From Archangium primigenium (lineage in GTDB: Bacteria; Myxococcota; Myxococcia; Myxococcales; Myxococcaceae): a stretch of 64,000 nt of DNA. Under the pieces are notes generated by a model. That model was not told the DNA's origin, made no database searches, and saw nothing but the letters and a program-made list of their open reading frames with translations. The first letter of the stretch is position 1. Every line of letters starts with the position of its first letter. The stretch is from assembly GCF_016904885.1 (NCBI RefSeq), contig NZ_JADWYI010000001.1:1054001-1118000 (forward strand), given 5' to 3'. Of the stretch, positions 58,216-64,000 are shown one piece after another. The translations under genes and the position numbers were made by a program.

Positions 58216-59301
58216 ATGACCTCTTCGCCGCAGTCCTCCGCCCTGGCCAGTGCGCGGCTCGCCGCGCGGCTCGGGGTGGAGCACGCCTTCCTCCAGGCGC
58301 CCATGGCCGGAGTGTCCACGCCGGAGATGGCCGCCGCCGTGTCCAACGCGGGCGGCCTGGGCTCGCTCGGCGTGGGCTACCTCCCGCCGGACGCGGTGCG
58401 TCAGCTCGCGCGGCGCGTGCGCGAGCTGACGGATCGCCCCTTCGCCCTCAACCTGTTCGCGCCCCAGCCCGCGCCCGCGCTGGACGCGGACAGCCCCATG
58501 TGGGGCGTGCTCGCGCGGGCCCACGCCGCGCTCGGATTGGAGCCCCCGCGCCCGTCCGCCTGGTCGCTTCCTCCGTTCGACGAACAGGTGGACGCGGTGC
58601 TGGAGAGCGATGCGCGGGTGTTCAGCTTCACCTTCGGGATTCCCCCGGCGTCGGTGCTCGCGCGGCTGCGTGCGGCGGGCCGGGTGCTGCTGGGCACGGC
58701 GACGACGGTGCACGAGGCGCGGCTGCTCGAGGCCGCGGGGGTGGACGGCATCGTCGCCCAGGGCAGCGAGGCCGGGGGCCACCGGGGCACGTTCGCCGGC
58801 CCCTTCGAGGACGCAATGGTGGGCACGCTCGCGCTGGTGCCGCAGATGGTGGACGCGGTGGGCCTGCCCGTGGTGGCCAGTGGCGGGCTGATGGATGGCC
58901 GGGGCATCGCCGCGGCGCGGCTGCTCGGAGCGGCGGGGGTGCAGCTCGGCACGGCGTTCCTCTTGTGCCCCGAGTCAGGTGCCTCGGAGGCCTACCAGGC
59001 GGCGCTGCGGAGCGCGCGCGAGGACGGCACGGGGGTGATCCGGGCCTTCTCCGGCCGACCGGCGCGCGGGCTCGTCACGGACTTCGCGCGCGAGGTGGAG
59101 GCCTCGGCGGTGCCGCTGCCCTTTCCCCTCCAGCACGGCGCGACCACGCCCCTGCGCGCCGCGGCCGCGGCCCGGGGGGAGGCGCGCTTCCTGGCGATGT
59201 GGGCCGGCCAGGGCGTGACGCTGGCGCGGCGCGTGCCGGCGGGGGAGCTGACACGCGCGCTCGTCGCCGATGCCGAGCGGCGGCTGCGGGGGGGCGGATG
59301 A
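58216..59301 (+). CDS. Nitronate monooxygenase-family FMN enzyme
   Basis: This 361-residue TIM-barrel flavoprotein has the family pattern AFLQAPMAGVSTPEM, GLGSLGVGYL, VVAQGSEAGGHRG (FMN phosphate site with the His) and VVASGGLMDGRG. It probably oxidises toxic alkyl nitronates such as propionate-3-nitronate, although family members have other functions. It starts after a 173-base intergenic gap. The stop overlaps the start of the membrane metalloprotease gene (ATGA), an unusual pairing. Confidence 0.85.
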   Translation: MTSSPQSSALASARLAARLGVEHAFLQAPMAGVSTPEMAAAVSNAGGLGSLGVGYLPPDAVRQLARRVRELTDRPFALNLFAPQPAPALDADSPMWGVLARAHAALGLEPPRPSAWSLPPFDEQVDAVLESDARVFSFTFGIPPASVLARLRAAGRVLLGTATTVHEARLLEAAGVDGIVAQGSEAGGHRGTFAGPFEDAMVGTLALVPQMVDAVGLPVVASGGLMDGRGIAAARLLGAAGVQLGTAFLLCPESGASEAYQAALRSAREDGTGVIRAFSGRPARGLVTDFAREVEASAVPLPFPLQHGATTPLRAAAAARGEARFLAMWAGQGVTLARRVPAGELTRALVADAERRLRGGG

Positions 59302-60089
59302 GCGGCCCGGGGCCCAAGTGGGTGCGCGTGTCGGTGCTGCTGGCCGTGCTGGTGGGCGTGGTGCTCTGGGGCTGGGGCCGGCAGCGCACGCGGGCCCAGC
59401 GCCTGGCGTGGGACCGGACGCTGCGGGTGGCGGTGGTGTTGATCACGCGGGACGAGGTGCCGGCGCCGGTGCGCGAGGCGTGGCGCGAGGGCGTGGGCCA
59501 GTTGGAGGACTGGGTGGGCCGCGAGGCGGCGCGCTACCGGACGGACCTGGGGGCGCGGCCCATCTCCTTCGAGCTGGAGGGCCCGGTGAACGCGGGCACG
59601 GTGCGCTTCGAGGAGCCCGAGCAAGGCCTCTGGGCCCGACTGCTCCAGGCGCGGCGGCTCGCGCGGGAGCTGGCCGAGGTGGACCGGGCGGCGGGCGTGG
59701 TGCCGCGCGAGTGGGACGCGCGCATCTACGTGCTGCTGGAGGACGGCGTGGACGGGCAGCGCCTGGTGGAGGGCATGGGCGAGGAGGGGGGCGTGGTGGG
59801 GCTCGTCCGCGCGCCGCGCGAGGACACGGAGGTGACGCTGGAGCTGACGGCGGTGGTGCACGAGTTCTTCCACTGCCTGGGGGTGAAGGACGCGTACGAC
59901 GCCGAGGGCCATGCCCGGGTGCCCGAGGGCCTGGTGGAGCCCGAGCGCCGACCGCTCTACCCGCAGGACGCGGCGGAGGTGATGGTGGGTGAGGTGCCAC
60001 TGGGCGAGGCCGAGGGCCGACTGCCCGGGTCGCTGGACGAGGTGGGCATCGGACCCGCCACGGCGCGCGCGCTGCGCTGGACGGAGTGA
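59298..60089 (+). CDS. Membrane-anchored putative zinc metalloprotease
   Basis: This 263-residue protein has one N-terminal transmembrane helix (VSVLLAVLVGVVLWGW) followed by a periplasmic domain with the gluzincin/metzincin-like motif HEFFHCLGVKD (residues 188-198: H-E-x2-H-x2-G-x2-D). The third ligand is Asp rather than His. No characterised family is recognised. It overlaps the start of the nitronate monooxygenase stop, so the two are cotranscribed. Its protein substrate is unknown. Confidence 0.7.
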   Translation: MSGPGPKWVRVSVLLAVLVGVVLWGWGRQRTRAQRLAWDRTLRVAVVLITRDEVPAPVREAWREGVGQLEDWVGREAARYRTDLGARPISFELEGPVNAGTVRFEEPEQGLWARLLQARRLARELAEVDRAAGVVPREWDARIYVLLEDGVDGQRLVEGMGEEGGVVGLVRAPREDTEVTLELTAVVHEFFHCLGVKDAYDAEGHARVPEGLVEPERRPLYPQDAAEVMVGEVPLGEAEGRLPGSLDEVGIGPATARALRWTE

Positions 60090-60102
60090 GGGGGCGTCCG
60101 GC

Positions 60103-60777
60103 TCAGCGCCGGGTATTGCGCTGGAGGGGCCGCGAGGACCAGTGCTCGCCGATGGCCTGGACGAAGTCGGCGCGAACGAGCTTGGCGCGGGCGGCGAGGA
60201 AGTCCCCCTCGTCCCGGCGGACATAGAGCCCTTCCAGGGGAGCCTGGGTGAGCCGCGAGGTGCCGAGCATCCCGCGCAGATCCTCCAGGGTGAATCGCCC
60301 GCGGGCGATGGCCGGGACGCGGGCGAGCCCCAGCGCATCGAGCCAGGCGTCGCGCCGTCGCGAGGACCAGAAGCGGCCCGCCTGGCGGTCATAAAGGTCG
60401 AAGGCGAGGAACCAGTCCGGAAGTGCGTCGTAGTGGATGCTGTGGACGGCGAAGCACCACTCTCCAAAGAGGATGAGGTGGGAGCCCAGGGCTTGGGTCA
60501 GGGCGGCTCGCCGGGTGTCCAGCCAGGCCCAGAGCGGTTGGAACTGGGCCGGGGCGTGTGTGCCGAGGTAGGAACCACGGTTCTGGGCCTGGAGTTCTCC
60601 GGACGCGCTGACGGACAGACCCAGGTTGGCGCCATCGACCTTCTCCTCCACCAGGACCTCGGACGCCAGTAGCTCACGGACCTCGGGTGGCGAGAGCAGC
60701 TTGTCGCCTCGCGCGGACGTGGAGGCGAGCCAGGCCAGGTGCGGGGTGGAGGGGAACTTGAAGAAGGGCTCGGTCAT
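60103..60777 (-). CDS. RNA ligase (Rnl2/DRB0094-like family)
   Basis: This 224-residue ATP-dependent RNA ligase has the nucleotidyltransferase motifs in order: motif I EEKVDGAN (nucleophile Lys46), GEWCF near residues 105-109, the FDLYD segment, motif IV EGLYVR at 182-187 and motif V AKLVRADF. It is compact, without an extra C-terminal domain. It overlaps the PIN gene by four bases (60774-60777), so it is the last gene of a three-gene operon with an AAA ATPase. It probably seals tRNA or other RNA cut by a nuclease, perhaps including its own partner. Confidence 0.85.
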   Translation of the reverse strand: MTEPFFKFPSTPHLAWLASTSARGDKLLSPPEVRELLASEVLVEEKVDGANLGLSVSASGELQAQNRGSYLGTHAPAQFQPLWAWLDTRRAALTQALGSHLILFGEWCFAVHSIHYDALPDWFLAFDLYDRQAGRFWSSRRRDAWLDALGLARVPAIARGRFTLEDLRGMLGTSRLTQAPLEGLYVRRDEGDFLAARAKLVRADFVQAIGEHWSSRPLQRNTRR

Positions 60778-61301
60778 TTCGTGCCGGTCTTGCGCTGGTG
60801 AAGCTCCTCGATGTGCTCGGGACAGAGGAAGTGGACGGAGACGCCGCTCGCGGCCAGTGCGTCTCTCAGTCCCCACCACTTGCTGTCCGTGGCCTGGAGG
60901 ACAGGCGGCTTGTCCGGGTGGGCCACGCTGACGGCGACGAACTTCCGGTCGGAAGGGTCGAACGACGAGAGGGCCGCCTCGGTGGGGAACTCCTCGAAGT
61001 CGCGCGGGTCCGAGGCCTTGGGCGTGAGCTTCACGTGCGTGCAGCGAGTGGGGTTGGCCTGGTTCGTCAGCACCCATTTGAGGAACTTGTCGCCCACGCC
61101 GGGCTGCCCGCTGGGAGACAGCTTGTTCATGTACTCCTTCAAGACGCGGAACTTGTCGTCGATGACGATGTGGCCCGAGTGCATCAGCGCTTCGATCGCG
61201 CGGGTGCATGCCAGGACGCAGTGGGGATCGCCTTCTTCCCCGGCGTTCGCGGTGAGGGGCACATTGGTGTCGACGACGCACGGGTTCACGGGCGCGGTCA
61301 T
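60774..61301 (-). CDS. PIN-like ribonuclease
   Basis: This 175-residue protein has the PIN-domain acidic quartet: Asp11 in VVDTN, Glu37 (or Asp49) in the first helices, Asp118 in PSDRKFVAV and Asp139 in ATDSKWWG. PIN domains cut RNA, usually tRNA or mRNA, using magnesium. The start overlaps the ATPase gene by four bases and the end overlaps the RNA ligase start. The combination suggests a controlled nuclease paired with a repair enzyme. Confidence 0.8.
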   Translation of the reverse strand: MTAPVNPCVVDTNVPLTANAGEEGDPHCVLACTRAIEALMHSGHIVIDDKFRVLKEYMNKLSPSGQPGVGDKFLKWVLTNQANPTRCTHVKLTPKASDPRDFEEFPTEAALSSFDPSDRKFVAVSVAHPDKPPVLQATDSKWWGLRDALAASGVSVHFLCPEHIEELHQRKTGTK

Positions 61302-62704
61302 GACTCTTCCGAACCCAACTGGCGCTTCATGGCGGCCTCGGTCATCGCCGCGAGATCACCCACTTCATCGCCGAAGAAGTTCTCCGGCCAGTTGGTGATG
61401 TTGCCGAAGTCGTCGAGCTTGAGTTCCTCGATCGTGGATCCTTCGGGCCCCGGCTTGCAGAAATAAAGCGCGACGTCGGAGGGCGAGAGATTCTGCTCGG
61501 CGATGCGCCGTTGCAGTCGACGCAGGAAATGCTCGGAGTGGGTTTCCACGAGGAGTTGAATGTCGCGCTTTTCGCCCCCCATCTGAGTGTTCTCTTGCAT
61601 CTTCAGTGCCTCGATGAAGATGTCCGCGAGCGCGGACTGCGCTCGGGGATGAAGATGGAGTTCGGGCTGCTCGAAAATGAGCGTGGAGCCCCGCTCGACG
61701 TAGAGTAACTGCACGAGGACAGGGAGCACCTGGGAAACGCCAAACCCCACGTCCGTGAGGTTGACGGCGTCTTTCATCCCCATTGCTCGAACCAAGACCT
61801 CATATTCTTTTCGATTCGGTGCGATACTTTTTATATCGAAACTGTCGAGAAGTCCCAGGCATTGAAGCCACTTGGCGACCAGGACTTCGAGTTGGAAGTG
61901 CTGTTCTTCGGAGGGCGAAGTGAACATGCGCTCACGTGACGCGAGCAGTGCTTCGATGATGAGTTCACCATCAGGCCCCACGTCTTCAGGCGCATCTCCT
62001 GCCCATGTATATAGCCGAGAAGGAGGGATTCTTACAGGCGCGAGGTATCGGATAGAATCAAGGTTTTGCGCTAGGCTTTCCTGGAGGTCGTAATTGTCCT
62101 CCATGAATACCTTTAGTCCGTATTGGGAGATGTTTGTTTCAGTGGGGTTGATGCGAATCCCGTTGAAATGGACGGGAATTGCGGAAATGACTTGTGAGTA
62201 GGGGGGCGCGGGAGGGGCAGGGCTGAATTGGATTTGGTACTGGTTGAGCCCCATGCGTTGTGCACCAAGTTCGAGAGGGCCATCCGGCGAACTCATGTGC
62301 CGGTAATTGTAGGATTTCAGCTCCGCGCGTTCGTTCTCGGAGTCCACCGAGCCGATCGAGGCAGCGAAGGACATTGATTCTGCTCCATCGCGACCAATCA
62401 ATCTGTCAAGCCACATGCTTCTTGTAGGGAAGAGTTCCAGGGAGAATTCGATGGTCCGGCTGGGCTCGTGACGGAACACCATCTCCGGCCAGACCCCCAG
62501 GTCCACGAGACTGCGACTGTCCCCGAAGTTCAGCGCGCGCCTGCGATCGGTTGATTGGACCGTCTGCTTCAGCATGAGCAGGAACTGAAGCAGGCTCGTC
62601 TTGCCGGAACTGTTCGTCCCGAAGAACACCGTCAACGGCGCGAGCCGGATGTCGCCGGTGTCCTGCCATGCCTTGAAGTTCTGGATGCGAAGTCGGGTCA
62701 ACAT
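61298..62704 (-). CDS. AAA/ABC-type ATPase with DUF3696-like C-terminus
   Basis: This 468-residue ATPase has Walker A GTNSSGKTS (residues 29-37), Walker B LIFEQPELHLHP, and the H-loop in LVETHSEHFLRR. It opens with LTRLRIQNFKAWQD like SMC/OLD-family ATPases. The region 61700-62450 has lower GC and rarer codons than the flanks, a sign of acquisition. It is the first gene of the ATPase-PIN-ligase operon, with a palindromic operator candidate (62728-62744) ahead of it. Confidence 0.85.
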   Translation of the reverse strand: MLTRLRIQNFKAWQDTGDIRLAPLTVFFGTNSSGKTSLLQFLLMLKQTVQSTDRRRALNFGDSRSLVDLGVWPEMVFRHEPSRTIEFSLELFPTRSMWLDRLIGRDGAESMSFAASIGSVDSENERAELKSYNYRHMSSPDGPLELGAQRMGLNQYQIQFSPAPPAPPYSQVISAIPVHFNGIRINPTETNISQYGLKVFMEDNYDLQESLAQNLDSIRYLAPVRIPPSRLYTWAGDAPEDVGPDGELIIEALLASRERMFTSPSEEQHFQLEVLVAKWLQCLGLLDSFDIKSIAPNRKEYEVLVRAMGMKDAVNLTDVGFGVSQVLPVLVQLLYVERGSTLIFEQPELHLHPRAQSALADIFIEALKMQENTQMGGEKRDIQLLVETHSEHFLRRLQRRIAEQNLSPSDVALYFCKPGPEGSTIEELKLDDFGNITNWPENFFGDEVGDLAAMTEAAMKRQLGSEES

Positions 62705-62727
62705 GAGGCCGGGTTCTACCGCGTAAT

Positions 62728-62744
62728 CCGTTCAGACCGAACGG
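62728..62744. promoter_or_regulatory. Possible operator ahead of the ATPase-PIN-ligase operon
   Basis: CCGTTC and GAACGG form six-base arms around AGACC, 24-40 bases upstream of the ATPase start. A weak -10 candidate (TAGAAC on the minus strand, 62718-62713) lies between it and the ATG. Confidence 0.35.
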
Positions 62745-62882
62745 CGCGCTCTTGCGAGGGCGTCCACCAGATGGGACTCCTCGCCGCTCGGTCCACTGCC
62801 GGACGGCCCGCGCACCATGGGGTGACACCGGAGGTCACATTTCCGTGCTGACTTCTCCCGTCATGTCTAGACTGGGACTCGC

Positions 62883-64000
62883 ATGGAGACCGAGGAACAG
62901 GAGGGAGGGCGCGCCGAGGGACTGCCGCTGAGCTTCTACGCGCGGTGGGACGCCTCCACCGTGGACGAGAAGCTGGCCCTGGCGCGCGAGGCCGCGAGCC
63001 ATCCGGGCTTCGACGCGGAGGACGCCTTCGAGGTGGGCGGCCGTCTGGAGGAGGCGCTGGAGGAGGCGGGCCGCCACGCGGAGCTGGAGGCCGTGCTGGA
63101 CGAGTGGCGGCGGCGCGCGCCCCGGGTGCACGACGCCGAGCCCGCCGTGTACACGTGGCGGGTGGAGCTGGCCTTGCGGCGGCCGGGCGGGGACGTGAAG
63201 GGCGCGCTGGTGGCGCTGGCGCGGCGCACGGGCGACTGCGCGCTGGTGACCCGACTGGCCGAGTGGTGTCTCTACCGGGGCCGCGTGGAGGAGGCGTGGG
63301 CGGGCCTGCGCGAGGCGTGGCCCCGGGTGCGCGAGGACGAGTCCCTGCCCGAGTGGACGCGGGTGGACTACGTGACGCGCGCGGTGCTCACCGGCATGGA
63401 CGCGGCGCTGTTCCGGGAGCCCGCGCTGGGCGAGCCCGTGCTGGCCTCGCTGCTCGCGCCCTTCGAGCGGGCGGTGCCGCACTGGCTGGGCGAGGCCCTG
63501 GCGCTGCGCACCGGCCGCGAGGCGTGGCGACGGCGCTCGGGCCACGAGGTGCTGGCCCTGCCCGTGGAGCGCTTCATCGACGCGCAGCGCGCCCTGGTGA
63601 TGTCCTTCGAGCCGGAGTTGCGGCTGCGCCAGGGCTGGCCGTGGGGCCGCACGCAGCTGCTGTTCCCGGAGCTCTTCCACCTGCTGCCCGGCCCGTATGG
63701 CGAGGGCGGGAGGGATCCCCGGCCCGAGCATGTGCTGCTGCCCGTGCTGCGTGACCTGGAGCAATGGGTGTGGGGCCAGGCCGAGGAGCGGGCCCTGCAT
63801 CCGCACGTGCACGCCGCCCTGACGCTCTCGCTGCGCCCCTGGGGCGAGTACCTGTGTGGGCTCGGGCTGCTCGGGGCCGAGGCGTGGGCGGACTGGTGGG
63901 CGGCGGCCTGGGAGGTGCTCGCGGTCCTGCCCGAGCAGTTCGCCACGGCGGGGGATGGCCCGCTCGTGGATGAGGTGCACCGGTTCTTTCGAGGAGGCGC
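62883..64000 (+). CDS. Large helical protein of unknown function, 5' part
   Basis: The frame is open from ATG 62883 to the window end (about 372 codons, continuing). The protein is helical and rich in Trp, Leu, Ala and Arg. Alternating Glu/Ala-rich and Trp/Leu-rich helices (HAELEAVLDEWRRRAP, LAEWCLYRGRVEEAW) suggest a repeat or TPR-like scaffold. No domain or catalytic motif is recognised. It is divergent from the ATPase operon (178-base gap), so the two may share a control region. Confidence 0.7.
   Translation, partial: METEEQEGGRAEGLPLSFYARWDASTVDEKLALAREAASHPGFDAEDAFEVGGRLEEALEEAGRHAELEAVLDEWRRRAPRVHDAEPAVYTWRVELALRRPGGDVKGALVALARRTGDCALVTRLAEWCLYRGRVEEAWAGLREAWPRVREDESLPEWTRVDYVTRAVLTGMDAALFREPALGEPVLASLLAPFERAVPHWLGEALALRTGREAWRRRSGHEVLALPVERFIDAQRALVMSFEPELRLRQGWPWGRTQLLFPELFHLLPGPYGEGGRDPRPEHVLLPVLRDLEQWVWGQAEERALHPHVHAALTLSLRPWGEYLCGLGLLGAEAWADWWAAAWEVLAVLPEQFATAGDGPLVDEVHRFFRGG

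Follow-up and report, generated by a model that had tools for sequence, protein, structure and literature searches.

A mobile HEC-03-type ATPase and PIN nuclease cassette carrying an RNA ligase, a probable anti-phage system in Archangium primigenium

Three overlapping genes of A. primigenium, coding for an OLD/SMC-like ABC ATPase, a predicted PIN-domain RNase and a small RNA ligase, probably make up a mobile anti-phage cassette: the PADLOC candidate HEC-03 (Hma-embedded candidate 03) with an RNA ligase added, in which an ATPase would control an abortive-type RNase defence that carries its own repair enzyme. The cassette lies in the window, the whole 64,000-nucleotide stretch of DNA analysed here, and all positions refer to it. 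Sequence analysis supplies the gene set, its conservation, mobility and defence context, the intact active sites and the covariation of ATPase tail with PIN subtype. A proposed division of labour among ATPase sensor, PIN cutter and repairing ligase is consistent with these active sites, with the fold matches of the models and with tail-PIN co-evolution. The features are as follows.

61298-62704, minus strand: gene P0001 (468 aa), OLD/SMC-like ABC ATPase with C-terminal DUF3696, from Pfam and the HEC-03B match
60774-61301, minus strand: gene P0002 (175 aa), predicted PIN-domain RNase, from the HEC-03A match and an AlphaFold2 model
60103-60777, minus strand: gene P0003 (224 aa), small ATP-dependent RNA ligase (PF09414), from Pfam, model and motifs
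62713-62720, minus strand: GGTAGAAC, -10-like element just 5' of the ATPase start, retained by eye in relatives
62822-62838, no strand assigned: palindrome GTGAC-N7-GTCAC, a flank element outside the operon
60090-62820, no strand assigned: segment of ~2.7 kb missing from the same place in two congeneric genomes, right edge approximate

The initial annotation had described three minus-strand genes with four-base overlaps, and the reading frames bear this out: ATPase and PIN genes share a 4-bp ATGA at 61298-61301, and PIN and ligase genes another at 60774-60777. The overlaps are not due to chance, since the same -4 spacing recurs at most other junctions of this kind (43 of 64 between ATPase and PIN, 43 of 71 between PIN and ligase). 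The reduced GC content noted for part of the ATPase gene was also found: the gene has 56.6% and the window 71.2%, and of the 450-bp segments with a GC content of 58% or less almost every one falls inside the gene. Recent private acquisition was ruled out as the sole cause, because the ATPase gene likewise lies below its surroundings in relatives L044-L051. In the same relatives GGTAGAA, GATAGAA or close variants were seen by eye at a similar distance from the ATPase ATG, which makes GGTAGAAC at 62713-62720 a putative -10-like promoter element of the operon; few genomes underlie these GC and promoter statements. The palindrome, in contrast, is not the operator that it had been taken for. It exists at 62822-62838, but sister species without the operon carry TGAC-N7-GTCA or a close form at the corresponding sites, so that it predates the operon and belongs to the flank; upstream of the operon in relatives it was not seen. 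It is likely an element of the flanking gene that starts at 62883 on the plus strand. A TGAC-N7-GTCA palindrome, or a close form, is kept 5' of this gene in three congeneric genomes. Between 59500 and 63500 there was no Rfam match to a structured RNA.

P0001 contains the Pfam domains AAA_15/AAA_21 and DUF3696 and matches PADLOC HEC-03B (PDLC04148) over residues 1-464 (E 1.4e-108). Its Walker motifs are conserved (62 homologues), and residues 86-205 form its least conserved large segment. It scores 95 bits against the AriA model of PARIS, far under its HEC-03B score, and 207.8 bits against the NsnB model. Nsn is presumably Menshen; despite the NsnB-type ATPase match, Menshen partner genes are absent from the trio, and neither the PIN nor the ligase gene matches any Nsn model. 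Pfam gave no match for P0002, and only one of 71 family members matched, weakly. P0002 does match HEC-03A (PDLC04147) over residues 8-164 (E 2.1e-32), and the best structural matches of its AlphaFold2 model (pLDDT 94.3) are VapC toxins, with Z up to 9.4 (5sv2: Z 9.4, rmsd 3.1, 124 residues). Assignment to the PIN superfamily is supported by the modelled PIN fold together with four acidic residues, D11, E56, D118 and D139, that are invariant in 71/71 homologues. The protein thus resembles VapBC toxins in RNase fold and active site, whereas a VapB-like antitoxin is absent and the PIN neighbours are an ATPase and a ligase. P0003 is a PF09414 RNA ligase by its family score (E 7e-32, 111.3 bits vs a cut-off of 27) and its nucleotidyltransferase lysine; it had no match among PADLOC models, and its 13.5 bits against TIGR01209 (Rnl3) are below the cut-off of 136.9. 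The ligase model (pLDDT 92.5) matches a Naegleria nick-sealing RNA ligase, an archaeal RNA ligase, T4 Rnl2 and TbREL1, and residues K46, D48, G49, R67, E106, E182 and K199 are invariant in 84/84 homologues. The catalytic motifs described as intact in the initial annotation (Walker motifs, the PIN D/E/D/D quartet and ligase Lys46) are therefore conserved among homologues as well.

About 85,000 species genomes were scanned with a ligase alignment, which yielded 149 relatives; the closest 80 were kept. The initial annotation had suggested asking whether the three genes stay together outside close relatives and whether they lie close to defence genes, and both proved to be the case. ATPase, PIN and ligase genes stand together at 62 of the 80 loci, a count that takes in contig-edge fragments (L096, L100, L130), a split PIN gene (L113) and a decayed copy, L083, whose locus is also that of L053. 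PIN lies beside the ligase at 69 of the 80, that is, in the 62 trios and in 7 loci without an adjacent ATPase. These loci come from Myxococcota, Acidobacteriota, Planctomycetota, Verrucomicrobiota, Synergistota, Thermodesulfobacteriota, Nitrospirota, Pseudomonadota and the archaeon Methanolobus. Since this search started from the ligase, a second one was started from PIN; it covered 299 Pseudomonadota genomes, 14 of which carry PIN when the carrier used as centre is included. Among the other 298 there were 13 PIN matches, with an adjacent ATPase in 13/13 and an adjacent ligase in 10/13. About a quarter of the PIN+ATPase pairs in this sample thus lack the ligase, so that it is not strictly required; both searches were confined to a subset of the genomes available. 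In a panel of 193 genomes of relatives, PIN was present in 12, and in 11 of these 12, including two genomes of another family, a ligase of the close clade follows directly downstream. Protein distances are correlated for all pairs (Mantel r 0.62 for ligase/PIN, 0.70 for ligase/ATPase and 0.88 for PIN/ATPase; 0/2000 permutations). Distant PF09414 ligases from the same phylum (about 30-41% identity, L056-L063) are without PIN or ATPase partners. Judged from gene neighbourhoods and covariation, the ATPase-PIN-ligase set is a real unit. A ligase that is a chance neighbour or a core gene was ruled out by the recurrent PIN-ligase adjacency. On one metagenome-assembled contig, doubtfully labelled Klebsiella pneumoniae (L089:6300-8690), the ATPase gene runs directly into the ligase gene with no PIN gene between; decay or misassembly probably accounts for this copy.

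In the window the cassette sits between a metallopeptidase-like gene (59298-60089, plus strand) and the gene starting at 62883 (plus strand). The flanking genes P0004 and P0005 are only about 140 bp apart, with no cassette between them, in the congeneric genomes G002 and G003. Plasmids carry trios as well, in Azotobacter, Aeromonas, Tistrella and Rhodococcus; the PIN gene is annotated there as 'hypothetical'. On the ligase tree the phylum label has to change 30 times against a minimum of 13, a departure that fits transfer and to which genome bins and paralogues can also add changes. Occupied and empty sites, plasmid carriage and the ligase tree together indicate that the cassette is mobile. 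No defence genes were found in its immediate flanks in the window itself. Elsewhere, nine trios abut the BREX genes pglX and/or brxHI. Five of them (L099, L106, L109, L127, L134) are flanked by both genes, and in all five the brxHI start overlaps the ligase stop codon; three follow pglX (L091, L121, L137) and the archaeal one precedes brxHI (L115). Neighbour scans further returned methyltransferases, DISARM DrmMI and type IIG enzymes.

The ATPase C-terminal tail, after the WPxxFFGD motif, is of two types, and in each trio that was scored the tail type corresponds to the PIN subtype (9 of type 2, the remainder of type 1; inspection of PIN and tail sequences placed L072 and L090 in type 2). On a tree of ATPase bodies the tail type switches about four times. 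The switched ATPases L051, L052 and L084 cluster with type-1 bodies, L051 with low support for its placement. The ligases of L051 and L044 are 85% identical while their PIN proteins are 33% identical, so that the ligase stays while ATPase tail and PIN switch; in Burkholderiales, too, it is kept with PIN where no ATPase gene adjoins. The joint switching points to a tail that docks onto PIN or controls it. Since the ligase is indifferent to PIN subtype, it more likely acts on cut RNA than on the PIN protein.

These observations can be brought together in a model. The ABC ATPase would sense infection, with its variable middle region as the likely sensor, and its C-terminal tail would keep PIN inactive until a trigger arrives. 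Once released or activated, PIN would cleave a cellular RNA and halt phage growth; by analogy with VapC toxins, the target would most likely be tRNA or rRNA. The ends that PIN nucleases produce are 3'-OH and 5'-phosphate, and RNA ligases of the class of P0003 carry out ATP-dependent sealing of just such ends; the end type assigned to P0002 and the ligase polarity are taken from this family knowledge. With ATP, the ligase would thus seal the ends left by PIN, and no end-healing enzyme would be needed because these ends can be sealed directly. In uninfected cells it would mend leaky cuts, and it may enable survivors to recover. Altogether, the co-switching of tail and PIN, the constancy of the ligase and the end chemistry favor an ATPase-triggered RNase defence with built-in repair. 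More tentatively, and with somewhat less than even confidence, we propose self-reversing RNA-targeting immunity, with sensor, cutter and resealer in one operon, in which infected cells would arrest translation and could recover instead of dying. Host RNA cleavage can be undone by phage-encoded RNA ligases, as in T4 against PrrC. If the proposal is true, bacteria build reversibility into abortive-type defence, with cutter and sealer encoded together by a widespread host cassette. The cassette would be a compact system for asking whether such a defence kills the cell or only pauses it, the ligase would be a missing component of the catalogued, unexplained candidate HEC-03, and the docking rule between ATPase tail and effector can be tested.

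The ligase could instead be part of the attack, adenylating, circularising or mis-joining the PIN-made ends and thereby making the damage permanent or beyond the reach of phage repair enzymes. The ligase gene closes a tightly coupled operon and is kept with PIN even in loci that have lost the ATPase, and a Palaeococcus Rnl3 is described as combining strong adenylation with weak ligation (cited in PMC12153264). However, the top structural matches of P0003 are nick-sealing ligases, which normally restore RNA, and its absence from about a quarter of the PIN+ATPase pairs is easier to reconcile with an accessory safety device than with an essential step. We regard an attacking ligase as unlikely.

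An RNA repair device, in which the ATPase would recognise broken RNA or stalled ribosomes, PIN would trim and the ligase would reseal damage done by other toxins or phage nucleases, is improbable too. RNA ligases are a hallmark of bacterial RNA repair operons such as Pnkp1/Rnl/Hen1, and embedding in BREX could mean that damage done during infection is mended. In the Pnkp1-Rnl-Hen1 complex (PMC4411300), the RNA ligase is thought to neutralise ribotoxin damage; that complex has end-healing and end-protecting partners and, judging from the components described for it, does not include a nuclease. In contrast, neither a kinase-phosphatase nor a Hen1 3'-end methylase gene was found in the window operon or the annotated plasmid loci, so that 2',3'-cyclic-phosphate ends could not be healed. 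The PIN protein is moreover closest to VapC toxins, and an OLD-type ATPase with a nuclease is the layout of abortive systems.

A housekeeping or regulatory RNA-processing module that travels with defence islands by chance, for which HARP and Rnl3 offer a precedent (PMC12153264) and the PIN-ligase pair, at a conserved chromosomal place in Aquabacterium and other Burkholderiales, some support, is very unlikely given the patchy presence (12/193 relatives, 14/299 Pseudomonadota) and the plasmid carriage, cross-phylum transfer and BREX embedding that are typical of defence genes.

In that one lineage, the conserved chromosomal place and the lack of the proposed controlling ATPase do suggest a non-defence use. 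Seven Burkholderiales (L108, L116, L118, L123, L132, L139, L143) carry PIN and ligase without an adjacent ATPase, all with an intact PIN active site, and this is possibly a domesticated RNA-processing pair. By eye, an ExeA-type ATPase and a cyanophycin-synthetase-like gene recur as neighbours of these pairs.

The ATPase-controlled RNase defence proposed here shares features with several described systems. HEC-03 has the same adjacent HEC-03B ATPase and HEC-03A PIN genes and differs in that the RNA ligase lies outside any PADLOC model; the open-licence literature yielded neither a mechanism nor an assay for it. An OLD-ABC ATPase with a PIN endoRNase also figures among the BREX 'backup effectors' (Rakesh and Krishnan 2026, PMC12839542), which resemble our trio in placing an ABC ATPase and a PIN protein beside BREX genes; the word 'ligase' appears nowhere in the paper's main text. 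The statement in the initial annotation that no described system has this exact set therefore stands for the ligase, for which we found no report as third component with ATPase and PIN in the open-licence literature, but not for the ATPase+PIN pair, already present as HEC-03 and among the BREX effectors (PMC12839542). Only the ligase appears to be unreported. PARIS (AriA/AriB) likewise has an OLD-type ABC ATPase controlling an RNA-cutting effector, as proposed here, but its effector AriB is a Toprim protein whereas HEC-03A has a PIN fold, and the RNA ligase is an addition here. A PIN-superfamily nuclease gene co-occurs with an RNA ligase in HARP and Rnl3 as well (Seshadri and Gopalan 2025, PMC12153264). 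Those genes are usually divergent, come from extremophiles, have no reported ATPase and were given a proposed role in RNA maturation (PMC12153264). They also belong to other PIN and ligase families, the PIN protein described here having no Pfam match and the ligase scoring under the TIGR01209 cut-off.

The ligase clade also occurs in other settings. In the Verrucomicrobiota L110, L112 and L119 it follows a different ATPase/PIN-motif pair, the PADLOC candidate PDC-M07. PDC-M07B homologues show a D...E...D...D pattern by eye, and hhalign, run with a single sequence, detected no profile link between PDC-M07B and P0002. PDC-M07B loci in Pseudomonadota have no ligase. In L112, PDC-M07 and the ligase lie inside a methylase-helicase locus. 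Among viral contigs, just 3 of 54 ligase matches belong to a trio. Large viral contigs (L229-L246) often encode one or two RNA ligases of a related but distinct type, without PIN or ATPase. In a single complete example (L131:1486-4422), the ligase lies directly 3' of a PDC-S46 protein with AAA_13, which we take to be the Pfam domain of PrrC/RloC-like proteins, in a restriction-type locus.
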